A model generated the notes under the pieces. It was not told where the DNA came from and ran no database searches. It saw nothing but the letters and a program-made list of their open reading frames with translations. A program made the position numbers and the translations under genes. Below are positions 3,400 through 47,492 of a DNA stretch of 61,671 nucleotides, piece by piece (position 1 is the stretch's first letter; every line of letters starts with the position of its first letter). The DNA comes from an uncultured Candidatus Actinomarina sp. (GTDB taxonomy: Bacteria > Actinomycetota > Acidimicrobiia > Actinomarinales > Actinomarinaceae). Location of the stretch: the NCBI GenBank assembly GCA_902615855.1, contig CACMQN010000004.1:1-61671 (forward strand). The letters run 5' to 3'.

Positions 3400-3678
3400 T
3401 TACTTTTTTATTACTTTATATCTCTTTTTTGTAACTTGCCTAAAGTATTGAACTATATTGCCAATAATTACAAGGGTTGCAATAGCAACACTTGTAGGAA
3501 TTAGAAACTTATATGTCCATTGCGGATCTTCTGGAACCTCTATCTCTTCTTCAATTACAATTGCTGGTATAGGAGTTTGTTCATGGTCATCTGTAAAGCT
3601 TGAAGAGCCATTAGTAATTGCAAATGCAAAACTGTTAATAAATAAGAAAATAAAAAACATTGCCAAAAACTTTTTCAC
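3400..3678 (-). CDS. Small membrane protein with signal peptide, function unknown
   Basis: A 92-aa product with a typical signal sequence (MKKFLAMFFIFLFINSFAFA), an acidic, proline-containing linker of about 30 residues, one membrane segment (about residues 58-76) and a short basic tail ending KKRYKVIKK. The predicted topology is a large outside loop with a cytoplasmic C-terminus. I do not recognise the family. It starts the tilS-ftsH transcript or is cotranscribed with it, the gap to tilS being about 10 nt. Signal peptide and context support a real gene. Confidence 0.6.
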   Translation of the reverse strand: MKKFLAMFFIFLFINSFAFAITNGSSSFTDDHEQTPIPAIVIEEEIEVPEDPQWTYKFLIPTSVAIATLVIIGNIVQYFRQVTKKRYKVIKK

Positions 3679-29634: not shown

Positions 29635-29726
29635 GGAGGTGAATGAGCGCCTGGTGGGCTCCACAGTCTTCAAAACTGCTGAAAGGCTTAAGTGTCTTTG
29701 GCGGGTTCGATTCCCGTCCACCTCCG
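29635..29726 (+). tRNA. selC: tRNA-Sec (anticodon UCA)
   Basis: A 92-nt tRNA with a long variable arm. The acceptor stem GGAGGTG/CACCTCC forms, extendable to 8 positions with an A-C mismatch, with discriminator G at 29726. The D-arm pairs GAGC/GCTC, and the anticodon arm is CAGT-CTTCAAA-ACTG, giving anticodon TCA, which reads UGA. The variable arm AAAGGC-TTAAGT-GTCTTT has six pairs including a G-U. The T-arm is GCGGG-TTCGATT-CCCGT. Length, large extra arm and UCA anticodon together identify tRNA-Sec. CCA is not encoded. It works with selD at 55.5 kb; selA and selB are not in the window. Confidence 0.95.
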
Positions 29727-43171: not shown

Positions 43172-44263
43172 ATGGACGAAAAATTAGTAGAACAAATAAG
43201 TACAGATACAGGTGTACCTCAAGAATTGGTTTCTCGTTCAGCACAAGCTAGAGCGCAAGCTAATGGAGTTGATGTTAACGCAATTCTCGCAAGTTGGTCC
43301 AGCGGAGAAGCTCCAGTAGTGAGTTCTGCTCCTGCAGAAACGATTGTAGAAGAGGCTCCTGCAGAAACGGTTGTAGAAGAGGCTCCTGCAGAAACGGTTG
43401 TAGAAGAGGCTCCTGCAGAAACAGTGCTTAGTTATGTTGATGAAGATATTCCCCCACCAGCTCAACTCTCAGTTAAGATTTTTAGAGCTTTACAGTACGG
43501 AACAGTTTTTGGAATCGTTGCTGGGTTTATTCAGGCGTTTATTGTAAGTTCATATCTTTATGAAGGTCTAATTCTTGAGTCTGAAACTCTAAATTTAATT
43601 GCAAACTATACGCCTACTCAGTACATTTTGAATATTGCTTTAACTACAACTTTTTTTGCTGTAATAAGTTCAATAAACTTAAAAAAAATTCTAGAAAAAA
43701 ATTATGAAGGTTTTGGAATTCTTACAAATGATAGGGAGTCGTTATTTCTTGGAGTTGGCCTTGGTTTAATATTTGGTTCTTCTATTGGATTTGTAATAAC
43801 TTCAGATATTGGTGTAACGATTGAAGCAATACTTGAAGACGACGTTACAACCTATTTAATACCAGTAATTGGATCTTTCTGGAGAATTGTATTGTTTTCA
43901 ACTGTCTCTCAAGCAATAATTGCTTCAATCGTGATCGTCCTTGGTATACCTAAAGGTTTGGACATATATGAGCTGAAAGAGGCAAATGTAATTAGAAATA
44001 GAGTGACTGGATCTATTGTAATTCCGTTGGGGGCAATTTTATTTGGTGGTGTAATATCAGTTTTAATTTCTCAAGTATTTATTAATTTTCACGATTATGC
44101 ACCTTTATTTGCTCTGATAATATCTGCGGCAATTTTACTATTTGCTTCGGTGATGAGTTCTGCGCCAAAGATTAAAATTACTAGAAACGAAGTGCTTATC
44201 GCTGCAGCAGGGGTTATCACATTAACTGTAATAATTGCTAGTGTGGCTGCGAGTCAGAATTAA
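43172..44263 (+). CDS. Membrane protein with N-terminal helical domain and Glu-Ala-Pro repeats
   Basis: A 363-aa protein of three parts. Residues 1-48 (QISTDTGVPQELVSRSAQARAQANGVDVNAILASW) form a small helical domain resembling UBA- or E3-binding-like three-helix modules. Residues 53-85 are tandem EEAPAETVV repeats. The remainder has about seven hydrophobic segments. It lies 16 nt after ctaG and is the last gene of the cox cluster. I do not recognise a named family. It may be an oxidase-associated or lineage-specific envelope protein; this is inference from position. Confidence 0.7.
   Translation: MDEKLVEQISTDTGVPQELVSRSAQARAQANGVDVNAILASWSSGEAPVVSSAPAETIVEEAPAETVVEEAPAETVVEEAPAETVLSYVDEDIPPPAQLSVKIFRALQYGTVFGIVAGFIQAFIVSSYLYEGLILESETLNLIANYTPTQYILNIALTTTFFAVISSINLKKILEKNYEGFGILTNDRESLFLGVGLGLIFGSSIGFVITSDIGVTIEAILEDDVTTYLIPVIGSFWRIVLFSTVSQAIIASIVIVLGIPKGLDIYELKEANVIRNRVTGSIVIPLGAILFGGVISVLISQVFINFHDYAPLFALIISAAILLFASVMSSAPKIKITRNEVLIAAAGVITLTVIIASVAASQN
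43328..43426 (+). repeat. In-frame tandem repeat, 27-nt unit, 3.7 copies
   Basis: Three full copies (43328-43354, 43355-43381, 43382-43408) and one partial copy of a 27-nt unit beginning gctcctgcagaaacg. Copies differ by one base, so they arose recently by slippage or unequal exchange. Each encodes APAET(V/I)VEE, forming an acidic Pro-Ala linker. Copy number is likely to vary between strains. Confidence 0.95.
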
Positions 44264-44298: not shown

Positions 44299-44307
44299 TG
44301 CTATATT
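44299..44307 (+). promoter_or_regulatory. Extended -10 promoter of the aceA leader
   Basis: TGCTATATT fits an extended -10 (TGn-TATAAT). With standard spacing transcription starts at 44314, exactly on the A of the leader-peptide ATG. No convincing -35 is seen, as usual for extended -10 promoters. Confidence 0.55.
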
Positions 44308-44313
44308 GTTTTC

Positions 44314-44358
44314 ATGCAAAATTTAAACGCGTCAAAAGTAGTGGTGATTTATACATAA
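44314..44358 (+). CDS. Predicted leaderless leader peptide of an attenuator
   Basis: A 14-codon ORF encoding MQNLNASKVVVIYT, then TAA at 44356-44358. Codons 9-12 are Val-Val-Val-Ile (GTA GTG GTG ATT). Its ATG coincides with the predicted transcription start. It is followed by an antiterminator (44361-44370 with 44383-44392) and a terminator (44386-44411). A ribosome stalled on the Val/Ile codons would leave the antiterminator free, while one reaching the stop would cover 44361-44370 and let the terminator form. The consecutive Val codons recall actinobacterial ilvB leader peptides, but the downstream genes are glyoxylate-shunt genes. Confidence 0.55.
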   Translation: MQNLNASKVVVIYT

Positions 44359-44360
44359 TC

Positions 44361-44392
44361 TGCCCTGTCTTATGCGTTTGATGGACCGGGCA
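44361..44392 (+). promoter_or_regulatory. Predicted antiterminator hairpin
   Basis: Bases 44361-44370 (TGCCCTGTCT) pair with 44383-44392 (GGACCGGGCA) with one mismatch and one G-U. This uses the left arm of the terminator at 44386-44391, so the two structures are mutually exclusive. An additional upstream pairing, AAACGC (44325-44330) with GCGTTT (44374-44379), could form before translation and release the terminator. Confidence 0.5.
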
Positions 44393-44411
44393 AATAGCCC
44401 GGATTTTTTTT
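44386..44411 (+). terminator. Intrinsic terminator / attenuator ahead of the aceA operon
   Basis: CCGGGC-AAATA-GCCCGG is a perfect 6-bp GC-only stem with a 5-nt loop, followed by A and eight Ts. It is strikingly GC-rich for this genome. It lies between the predicted promoter and the ribosome-binding site GAAAGG of the 74-aa gene, so it must act conditionally for the operon to be read from this promoter. Confidence 0.85.
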
Positions 44412-44423
44412 GAAAGGAAAAAA

Positions 44424-44648
44424 ATGATTGACGAGAATACATTTTACGATGAAGAATATTACGAAAAAGACGATGAAAAGAATTCTTCAAAATTTGTGAA
44501 TAATTTTCTTTCTTTTGAAGATAAAATTTTTAGGGCTCCTTACAACTTTTTGAAAAAAATAGGAATTGTACAAACTTATCGAAATGTTGCAAAAAAATTA
44601 AAACAAACAAAAGATGACATTTACGAAAGTTTTTATGATGGAGAATAA
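44424..44648 (+). CDS. Small acidic protein, function unknown
   Basis: A 74-aa product with a very acidic N-terminus ([19 protein letters not shown]), then an amphipathic basic section containing [26 protein letters not shown]. No membrane segment. A GAAAGG ribosome-binding site lies 5 nt before the ATG. Its end overlaps the aceA start, so translation is coupled. I do not recognise a family. It is the first gene behind the attenuator and could be a small regulator or accessory protein for the glyoxylate shunt, which is inference. Confidence 0.65.
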
Positions 44649-45921
44649 AAATCATTTGGATCCCTCTTTACTAAGTGAAGAATGGAAAACAAACCCCAGG
44701 TGGAAAGATACAAAGCGTAACTTTTCTGCTGAAGATGTTGTTTCGTTAAGAAATTCCATTCAAATTGAGTATTCCCTCTCTCAAAATGGTTCAACAAATT
44801 TATGGAACTTACTCAATCGTAAAGATGAGTGGGTTTCAGCTTTAGGGGCATTATCAGGCAATCAAGCAGTGCAGATGGCAAAGGCTGGGCTTGAAGCAAT
44901 TTATTTAAGTGGTTGGCAAGTTGCGGCTGACTCAAATCTTGGAGATACAACTTACCCTGATCAATCATTATATCCAAGCAATAGTGCACCCAATCTTGCC
45001 AAAAAAATAAATAATGCTTTATTAAGAGCTGAGCAAGTTGATAAAACTGACGGTATCGATTCAACAAATTATATTGTTCCAATTGTTGCAGATGGAGAAG
45101 CAGGTTTTGGTGGAGCATTAAATGTATTTGAACTTACTAAAAAATTCATTGAAGCTGGTGTTGCTGCGGTTCACTTTGAAGACCAGCTTGCCGCAGAAAA
45201 AAAATGTGGACATATGGGTGGAAAAGTTTTAGTACCTACCAGTCAGCATATTCGAACATTAACATCTGCGAGACTAGCAGCCGATACTCTTGGTGTTCCA
45301 CTTGTAATCATCGCAAGAACTGATGCTTTAGGTGCAAATTTGCTAACAAGTGACATCGATGAAATTGATGCAGAGTTTGTTACTGGAGAAAGAACAGCAG
45401 AAGGATTTTATAGAGTAAATAATGGTCCAGATGCAGCTATCTCAAGAGCACTTTCTTATGCTCCTTATTCTGATTTGGTTTGGTGTGAAACTGGAAAACC
45501 TGACCTCGGTTTTGCAAAGGATTTTGCAGATGCAATTCATGAGAAGTATCCAAACAAGCTGATGGCTTATAATTGTTCCCCATCTTTTAATTGGAAAGCC
45601 TCTTTAAATGAAAAAGAAATAGAAACATTTCAAGAGCAATTAAATTCATTTGGTTACAAATTTCAGTTCATTACATTGGCAGGGTTTCATGCCTTAAACA
45701 CATCAATGTTTGAACTAGCTTCAAATTACAAAGGTGGAAATATGTCATCTTATGTAGAACTTCAGGAGAAAGAATTCTCACTTGAAGAAAAAGGGTTTAC
45801 GTCAGTAAAACACCAGAGAGAAGTTGGAGCTGGTTATTTTGATAAAGTATCAACAATTATTTCTGGAGGAGATGCCTCAACATTAGCACTGGAGGGGTCC
45901 ACTGAAGAAGAACAGTTTTAA
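44635..45921 (+). CDS. aceA: Isocitrate lyase
   Basis: Splits isocitrate to glyoxylate and succinate, the first step of the glyoxylate shunt. The ATG at 44635 gives 428 aa beginning [20 protein letters not shown], the normal family N-terminus. The catalytic loop [45 protein letters not shown] and the C-terminal [10 protein letters not shown] are all present. It overlaps the 74-aa gene by 14 nt and shares one base with the aceB start, so the three genes form one translational unit under the leader attenuator. Confidence 0.96.
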
Positions 45922-47492
45922 TGATCGATATTAATTCTGAAAAAATAAGTCAATATCAAAATATATTGACGGATGAAGCTATTAGTTTTCTAGAAAAAGT
46001 CTGTTCAACTTTTGAGAATACCCGTCAAGAAATTTTAAAAAATAGGGTAAAAATGCAAAATGATATTTCATCTGGCAAAAGACTTTCTTTTCCAAAAGAC
46101 AAAAAAATAAGAGAAGACAATTGGAAGGTTACAGCACCCCCAGCAGATGTGGCAAATAGAAATGTAGAAATTACGGGACCAGTGGATAGAAAAATGATTA
46201 TAAATGCATTGAATTCTGGGGCTGATGTATTCATGGCGGATTTTGAAGATTCAACTTCCCCTACATGGAACAATATTATGGATGGCCAAGTCAATTTACT
46301 TGATGCTAATCTTAGAGACCTTGAATTTGTGGATCCAAAAAATGAGAAAACATACTCTTTAAACCCAGAAAGTAACACAAGTCTCTTTGTTAGGCCAAGA
46401 GGCCTACACCTTGATGACAAAAATGTATTACTAAATGGCGCCCCTGTATCAGGAGCATTTTTAGATTTTGCTTTATATACATTTCATAATGCAAAATTGA
46501 GATTAGATAACGGGATAGGTACATATTTTTACATACCAAAGCTTGAAAATAGTTCAGAGTCACAACTTTGGGCTGATATCTTTTCTTTTTCTGAAGATGA
46601 ACTGAGTTTGCCTAGAGGAACTTTGCGGGCAACTGTACTCTTAGAGACAATATCAGCATCTTTTGAAATTGAGGAGATGCTTTACTCATTAAAAGAGCAT
46701 TCTCTAGGAATGAATGCAGGCCGATGGGATTATATTTTTAGCGCTATCAAAAAACATAGAGACTTACCAGAAATTAATTTTCCAGATAGATCACAAATTA
46801 CCATGACTGTTCCATTTATGAAAGCATACACTGAGTTGCTTGTACAGAGTTGTCACAAACGAGGTGCTCATGCAATAGGAGGTATGTCTGCGTTTATACC
46901 AAATAGAAGAGATCCTGAAATTACAGAAAAGGCTATAGATCAAGTGAAAAAAGATAAAGAACGTGAAGTAGCTATGGGTTTTGATGGCTCTTGGGTGGCA
47001 CATCCAGATTTAGTACAAGTATGTAAAGATGTATTCAAAGATTCTTTAGGTGCTAAGGAAAACCAAATTGATTTTATACCCAATGAACCAGTTATATCTG
47101 AGGACATGCTGCAAGATTTTAATATCCCTGGAGCAACAATTACCGAAGAAGGTATTAGAACTAATATACGTGTTGGTATCTTGTATGTTCAATCATGGCT
47201 TTTGGGACAGGGAGCCGCTGCATTATTTAATCTAATGGAGGATGCTGCAACAGCTGAAATATCTAGATCTCAATTATGGCAGTGGCTTAAGAATGAAGCA
47301 AAAACAGACGTAAACAAAAGTATTGATAAAAGTTTTGTAACCGAGCTAATCGAAGATGAAGTAAATAAAATAAAAGAAATTCAAGAAAATTCAGAAATGC
47401 TAAGTGAAGCGGTAACATTATTCAGCGATTTAATTTTTGATGAAGATTTTGAAGAATTTTTAACATTACCAGCTTATAATTTGATAGATTAG
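45921..47492 (+). CDS. aceB: Malate synthase A
   Basis: Condenses glyoxylate with acetyl-CoA to malate, completing the glyoxylate shunt. The 523-aa product is the A-type enzyme: VTAPPADVANRNVEITGPVDRKMIINALNSG region, FMADFEDSTSPTWNN, FVRPRGLHLDDK, GMNAGRWDYIFS and AHAIGGMSAFIPNRRD. Length fits isoform A rather than the longer G form. Start and stop of adjacent genes overlap in TAATG. Confidence 0.96.
   Translation: MIDINSEKISQYQNILTDEAISFLEKVCSTFENTRQEILKNRVKMQNDISSGKRLSFPKDKKIREDNWKVTAPPADVANRNVEITGPVDRKMIINALNSGADVFMADFEDSTSPTWNNIMDGQVNLLDANLRDLEFVDPKNEKTYSLNPESNTSLFVRPRGLHLDDKNVLLNGAPVSGAFLDFALYTFHNAKLRLDNGIGTYFYIPKLENSSESQLWADIFSFSEDELSLPRGTLRATVLLETISASFEIEEMLYSLKEHSLGMNAGRWDYIFSAIKKHRDLPEINFPDRSQITMTVPFMKAYTELLVQSCHKRGAHAIGGMSAFIPNRRDPEITEKAIDQVKKDKEREVAMGFDGSWVAHPDLVQVCKDVFKDSLGAKENQIDFIPNEPVISEDMLQDFNIPGATITEEGIRTNIRVGILYVQSWLLGQGAAALFNLMEDAATAEISRSQLWQWLKNEAKTDVNKSIDKSFVTELIEDEVNKIKEIQENSEMLSEAVTLFSDLIFDEDFEEFLTLPAYNLID

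Follow-up and report, generated by a model that had tools for sequence, protein, structure and literature searches.

A predicted valine-codon attenuator upstream of the glyoxylate shunt genes of Candidatus Actinomarina

The aceA-aceB locus and its leader

The window, by which we mean the whole stretch of 61,671 nucleotides analysed here, derives from an uncultured Candidatus Actinomarina sp. Members of this genus, which corresponds to the OCS155 cluster, are tiny and abundant, and rank among the most streamlined marine bacteria. The genes encoding isocitrate lyase (aceA) and malate synthase (aceB) are preceded in the window by a short leader and a terminator, which sit between them and the last gene (43172-44263) of a cytochrome-oxidase operon. 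The elements of the locus are the following.

44299-44307, + strand: extended -10 box (TGC-TATATT), 7 nt upstream of the leader ATG; the transcript is predicted to be leaderless
44314-44358, + strand: leader peptide ORF, 14 codons (MQNLNASKVVVIYT, then stop), ATG at 44314; predicted leaderless
44338-44346, + strand: control codons GTA GTG GTG (Val9-Val11); Val9 and Val10 are kept in 18/18 distinct leaders
44361-44370, + strand: region 2, 5' arm of the putative antiterminator (TGCCCTGTCT), with a GCCC:GGGC core
44383-44392, + strand: region 3, shared arm (GGACCGGGCA), partner of either region 2 or region 4, never of both
44386-44411, + strand: intrinsic terminator (CCGGGC-AAATA-GCCCGG-ATTTTTTTT), the stem of which is present in 35/35 leaders
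44424-44648, + strand: small ORF of 74 aa in the interval from terminator to aceA, with RBS AAAGGA
44626-45921, + strand: aceA, isocitrate lyase (NF011645, 703.5 bits, above cut-off)
45921-47492, + strand: aceB, malate synthase A (TIGR01344, 668.7 bits, above cut-off)

An earlier note on this DNA had described an attenuator made of the -10 box, the ATG, the ORF, its Val codons, the two arms and the terminator, and all these elements were confirmed down to their coordinates. The terminator stem-loop (44386-44402) is a perfect six-pair GC stem, and the ATTTTTTTT tail, with eight T, extends to 44411. The fold of the 125-nt leader has a z of -2.86, and was equalled in 1 of 200 shuffles. Given the frequency of Val in the window, three consecutive Val codons would occur by chance in a single 14-codon ORF with a probability of about 0.003.

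A scan for promoter consensus sequences found no good -35 at the 44299 site, which for this reason is missing from the list of predicted promoters. The promoter call is therefore based on the extended -10, which is conserved. The 18 distinct aceA leaders and the siblings described below carry a TGnTAnnnT-like box with unchanged spacing, and in each of the four kinds of leader (Val, Trp, Phe/Tyr, ilv) a -10 box precedes the ATG by about 7-8 nt.

The start codon of aceA is at or near 44635, and the gene overlaps the 74-aa ORF, which matches nothing in Pfam or NCBIfam. A small ORF upstream of aceA is present in 15/15 cassettes examined, measures 28 to 74 aa (28-29 aa in the other clade), and extends up to the start of aceA or into the gene; its C-terminal motif TKxxxYESxY is kept in all 15. 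Elsewhere in the window, a selenocysteine tRNA is found at 29635-29725 on the + strand (Rfam RF01852, 72.3 bits).

Occurrence of the leader and of its siblings in the genus

Two types of aceA, about 54% identical, mark the genus (type 1, loci L021-L039; type 2, loci L041-L050). Type-1 genes, 77-99% identical and including that of the window, were found in 20 genomes, in 19 of which the upstream DNA is visible. The entire device, made by -10 box, ATG, ORF, Val pair, stop, GCC(C) and terminator, accompanies 19/19 visible type-1 loci. The leader ORF measures 13-15 codons and is in frame in all of them, with adjacent Val codons at positions 9-10; the stop codon is followed after 1-3 nt by GCC(C), and the terminator is found some 25-30 nt after the stop. 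The leader peptides vary, with MQNLNASKVVVIYT at one end, MQKLNVVQVVVYIHM at the other, and MINLNAVKVVDYT and MQKYNIVNVVKYINM in between; one codon has been deleted in the L029 ORF, with the frame kept. A terminator retained without the Val codons or the ATG, the pattern that according to the earlier note would speak against attenuation, was seen in none of the 19, as ATG, Val pair, in-frame stop and terminator always occur together. This conservation is the main evidence for the predicted device, and comes from comparison of sequences; since all members belong to one genus, the leaders counted are related and do not represent independent cases.

The same comparison bears on the idea that the hairpin merely terminates the upstream oxidase operon, next to a short ORF found there by coincidence. 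The hairpin lies about 120 nt past the last oxidase gene, and could also stop oxidase transcripts. However, no terminator is present in 10/10 relatives in which a type-2 aceA lies behind the same oxidase operon; there the operon runs directly into type-2 aceA. In addition, leader and terminator accompany type-1 aceA into other neighbourhoods, the type-1 cassette being found at three or more different genomic sites, and the hairpin shares its conservation with the promoter, the ORF, the Val codons and the antiterminator arm. A plain terminator of the upstream operon was rejected since type-2 loci carry none, and this explanation is regarded as extremely improbable. In the lineage of the window the type-1 cassette is flanked by the oxidase operon and an SDR gene, at the place which elsewhere holds type-2 aceA. 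Malate synthases of the aceB kind are confined to type-1 genomes, with one exception at a contig edge (genome G026), in which malate synthase is present and no aceA is visible. As type-2 loci have no terminator, and genomes carrying type-2 aceA only have no malate synthase of this kind, the leader belongs to the complete glyoxylate-shunt cassette.

A covariance model (R1) built from the aceA leaders alone matches two further sites in most genomes. In the Trp class, peptides featuring WW (MKNITNLNWWTST and kin) precede a TrpB-like gene. In the Phe/Tyr class, YFYF peptides (MKINTYFYFRAHI and kin) precede a long aromatic operon, which includes DAHP synthase, prephenate dehydrogenase (TyrA), AroA, AroE, AroC and others, down to prephenate dehydratase (PheA). 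One representative of each class is listed here.

G000:C6:30086-30179, - strand: Trp-codon leader (L161) before the TrpB-like gene; predicted leaderless
G000:C8:40568-40661, + strand: Phe/Tyr-codon leader (L162) before the aromatic operon; predicted leaderless

The residue found in the siblings at the Val position is the amino acid of the operon downstream. A single architecture is therefore combined with different control codons, and the two classes serve as natural controls, in which the codons, as read from sequence, match the biosynthetic product. The Trp-codon leader deserves attention because Actinomarinales have been described as tryptophan auxotrophs (PMC7771536). A separate Leu/Val-rich leader of the MKNLAVFISVLVLLLI type, also predicted to be leaderless, precedes ilvB (loci L220-L239); its hairpins differ from those of the aceA leader, consisting of GCGCTCA...TGAGCGC and a CCTCCC/GGGAGG terminator in 20/20 loci.

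A combined covariance model (R2) found no members in 113 other Acidimicrobiia genomes, and a scripted search of other taxa found no Val leader plus terminator upstream of aceA. The wiring thus appears to be specific of the genus, though divergent versions might escape these searches.

Alternative pairings and the probable signal

Folding was modelled in 35 leaders of the Val, Trp and Phe/Tyr classes as a function of ribosome position. In the model without ribosome, region 2 is mostly occupied by region 1. When the ribosome is placed on the final control codon, the antiterminator has a probability of 0.97-1.00 in the Val class (18/18 leaders), 0.76-1.00 in the Trp class and 0.99-1.00 in the Phe/Tyr class; when it is placed at the stop codon, the probability falls to 0 in every leader modelled. 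The distance from the start of the last control codon to region 2 is 18-22 nt in all three classes. Both the stalled and the ribosome-free states of the window leader were reproduced by 7 of 400 shuffles, and shuffled leaders in general match this pattern in 1-2% of cases. In L005, L006, L007 and L030 the modelled ribosome-free state is not terminator-prone. A generic score for paired region 3 was discarded because this region can form weak local pairs at the stop state. The mutually exclusive pairings and the spacing typical of attenuation, pointed out in the earlier note for the window, hold in the models of all 35 leaders.

All 10 substitutions observed in region 2 among the 35 leaders retain pairing to region 3 through G.U, and the outer pair of the terminator is changed from C-G to U-A in the Phe/Tyr class. 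Covariation of the protector helix 1:2 was not above that of shuffles, and the RNAalifold consensus of the Val leaders recovered the terminator only.

Val9 and Val10 are invariant in 18/18 distinct leaders, and the Val9 codon varies synonymously (GTA, GTG, GTT). Codon 11 is variable, as Asp, Ser and Lys occur, and Ile is not fixed. Of the Val/Ile sensing initially proposed, the Val part is supported; sensing of Val and Ile together was rejected, as Ile is not conserved. The pattern points to Val-tRNA, rather than to branched-chain tRNAs in general, as the signal. GTG is the rarest Val codon in the genes of the window (8%), which served as the only reference for codon usage, but makes up 50 of the 67 Val codons (75%) of the leaders. 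Among 30 tRNA loci typed, tRNA-Val was found with the UAC and GAC anticodons only, and tRNA-Val(CAC) is absent; hence both GTG and GTA would be read by tRNA-Val(UAC). Helix 1:2 overlaps the Val codons, with a portion of GTGGTG paired to region 2; structure could therefore account for some of the nucleotide conservation of GTG. Three leaders disrupt this pair by GTA or GTT and retain Val, and at the sequence level they argue against structure as the whole cause of GTG conservation.

An attenuator might also respond to Ile, to Tyr, to branched-chain residues at large, or to the overall capacity for translation or leaderless initiation. Modelled stalls at Ile or Tyr codons located after the Val run also expose region 2, and a Tyr codon is found in every leader. 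Set against this are the unchanging Val9-Val10 pair, next to an Ile that is not fixed and a codon 11 that may specify Asp, Ser or Lys, and the siblings, which carry at the Val position the amino acid of their own operon. The Tyr-encoding string TACAT is found again in sibling leaders, where its reading frame differs, and therefore looks structural. A signal other than Val is accordingly held to be unlikely.

The leader is well structured and conserved, as would be a riboswitch or a protein-binding RNA containing an incidental ORF. A search of Rfam at gathering and relaxed thresholds gave nothing significant; no family reaches its gathering score, the best match being Leu_leader (21.8 bits versus a cut-off of 50). 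All members keep the ORF open and in frame, and the synonymous changes at Val9, the in-frame codon deletion and the control codons swapped in the siblings are all at odds with an incidental ORF. We consider an RNA of this type very improbable.

Proposed mechanism and relation to known systems

Sequence comparison and modelling together indicate that the leader is very probably a ribosome-mediated transcription attenuator of the aceA-aceB cassette, sensing charged tRNA-Val. Transcription would begin at the ATG of the leader ORF or right next to it, giving a leaderless message on which ribosomes would translate the ORF. With Val-tRNA in good supply, the ribosome would reach the stop codon and cover region 2; region 3 would then pair with region 4, forming the terminator and leaving aceA-aceB off. 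When Val-tRNA is scarce, the ribosome would stall on Val9-Val11, covering region 1 and leaving region 2 (GCCC) free to pair with region 3, with read-through into the shunt genes.

The genes under this predicted control, isocitrate lyase and malate synthase, do not make the sensed amino acid, and ilvB resides elsewhere with a leader of its own. Actinomarinales have been described as bacteria that prefer exogenous amino acids as carbon source, carry several branched-chain amino-acid transporters and have little regulatory capability (PMC7771536). Opening of the shunt at low Val-tRNA would fit this picture; more speculatively, valine may stand for the supply of imported amino-acid carbon, or of the pyruvate from which it is made, so that the shunt would open when amino acids are short. 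A device with siblings of textbook role in the same genomes appears to govern a central carbon pathway which, if true, would explain how a streamlined, regulator-poor marine bacterium times the glyoxylate shunt.

Attenuators are textbook devices for operons which make the sensed amino acid, or charge tRNA with it. The earlier note knew of no attenuator of the Val/Ile type that controls aceA/aceB, and no attenuator of either gene was found in the open-access literature (subscription journals were outside the scope of the search), which also gave no close precedent for a Val signal on a non-biosynthetic operon. The mechanism is known; target and wiring look new. The aceA leader shares with the classical trp and phe attenuators, including the trp leaders of Corynebacterium and Streptomyces (PMC1262725), the short ORF, tandem control codons, competition of antiterminator and intrinsic terminator, and stall/stop logic. 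Unlike them, it would act on a carbon pathway and not on genes that make the amino acid it senses, and its ORF is predicted to be leaderless. The TrpB and aromatic leaders of Actinomarina itself are its siblings. The ilvB leaders of Actinobacteria (PMC1262725, PMC10272879), such as that of M. tuberculosis ilvB1 with its LVVI codons (PMC13236596), similarly feature branched-chain control codons followed by a terminator, but they are located before ilvB and their codons are a mixture of Leu, Val and Ile. In Actinomarina, ilvB carries a leader of this sort, the hairpins of which are unlike those of the aceA leader.

Leaderless poly-cysteine short ORFs of mycobacteria (Canestrari 2020, as reported in PMC9031893 and PMC13236596) resemble the aceA leader in these accounts, being also from an actinobacterium, leaderless (here by prediction), and provided with one repeated codon to sense a single amino acid; in the same accounts they are described as translational attenuation of cysteine genes, whereas the aceA leader has an intrinsic transcription terminator. 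In function, the closest counterpart is found in SAR11, where a glycine riboswitch on the malate synthase gene glcB (PMC5069720) is likewise a leader RNA of a streamlined ocean heterotroph that links an amino acid to a glyoxylate-cycle enzyme. The SAR11 element senses free glycine and resides in Alphaproteobacteria, whereas the aceA leader is translated, would sense Val-tRNA, and precedes both shunt genes. Ribosome pausing affects the glyoxylate shunt also in E. coli, where EttA controls aceB (PMC11282234); this involves an ABC-F protein and acidic residues in the aceB coding region, unlike the aceA leader, and no amino-acid-tRNA attenuator.

As to its origin, we tentatively suggest, as a possibility somewhat less likely than its opposite, that a modular leaderless attenuator has been duplicated in the Actinomarina lineage and recoded to suit different amino acids. 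The aceA copy may descend from the Trp copy through a frame slip of one base, converting TGG TGG to GTG GTG and passing control of the shunt to valine supply. If so, amino-acid supply would be wired to carbon partitioning at the RNA level, with few protein regulators, in convergence with the SAR11 riboswitch on malate synthase.

Three Trp-type leaders (L165, L170, L172) have no TrpB-like gene directly behind, and feature a conserved TGTCACTGAAATTAAATCTCCGGGC element after the terminator; they are possibly orphan leaders or a small RNA. Weak matches to the model were found in L214, L215 and L216 (at about 3440-3630 of each), where short ORFs (MNLINIHHKGWSAI, MKIIINHHSRWSVF and MNFINRHHKGWSAI) precede a CCGGG terminator and may mark a further attenuator, with His or Trp as possible signals.
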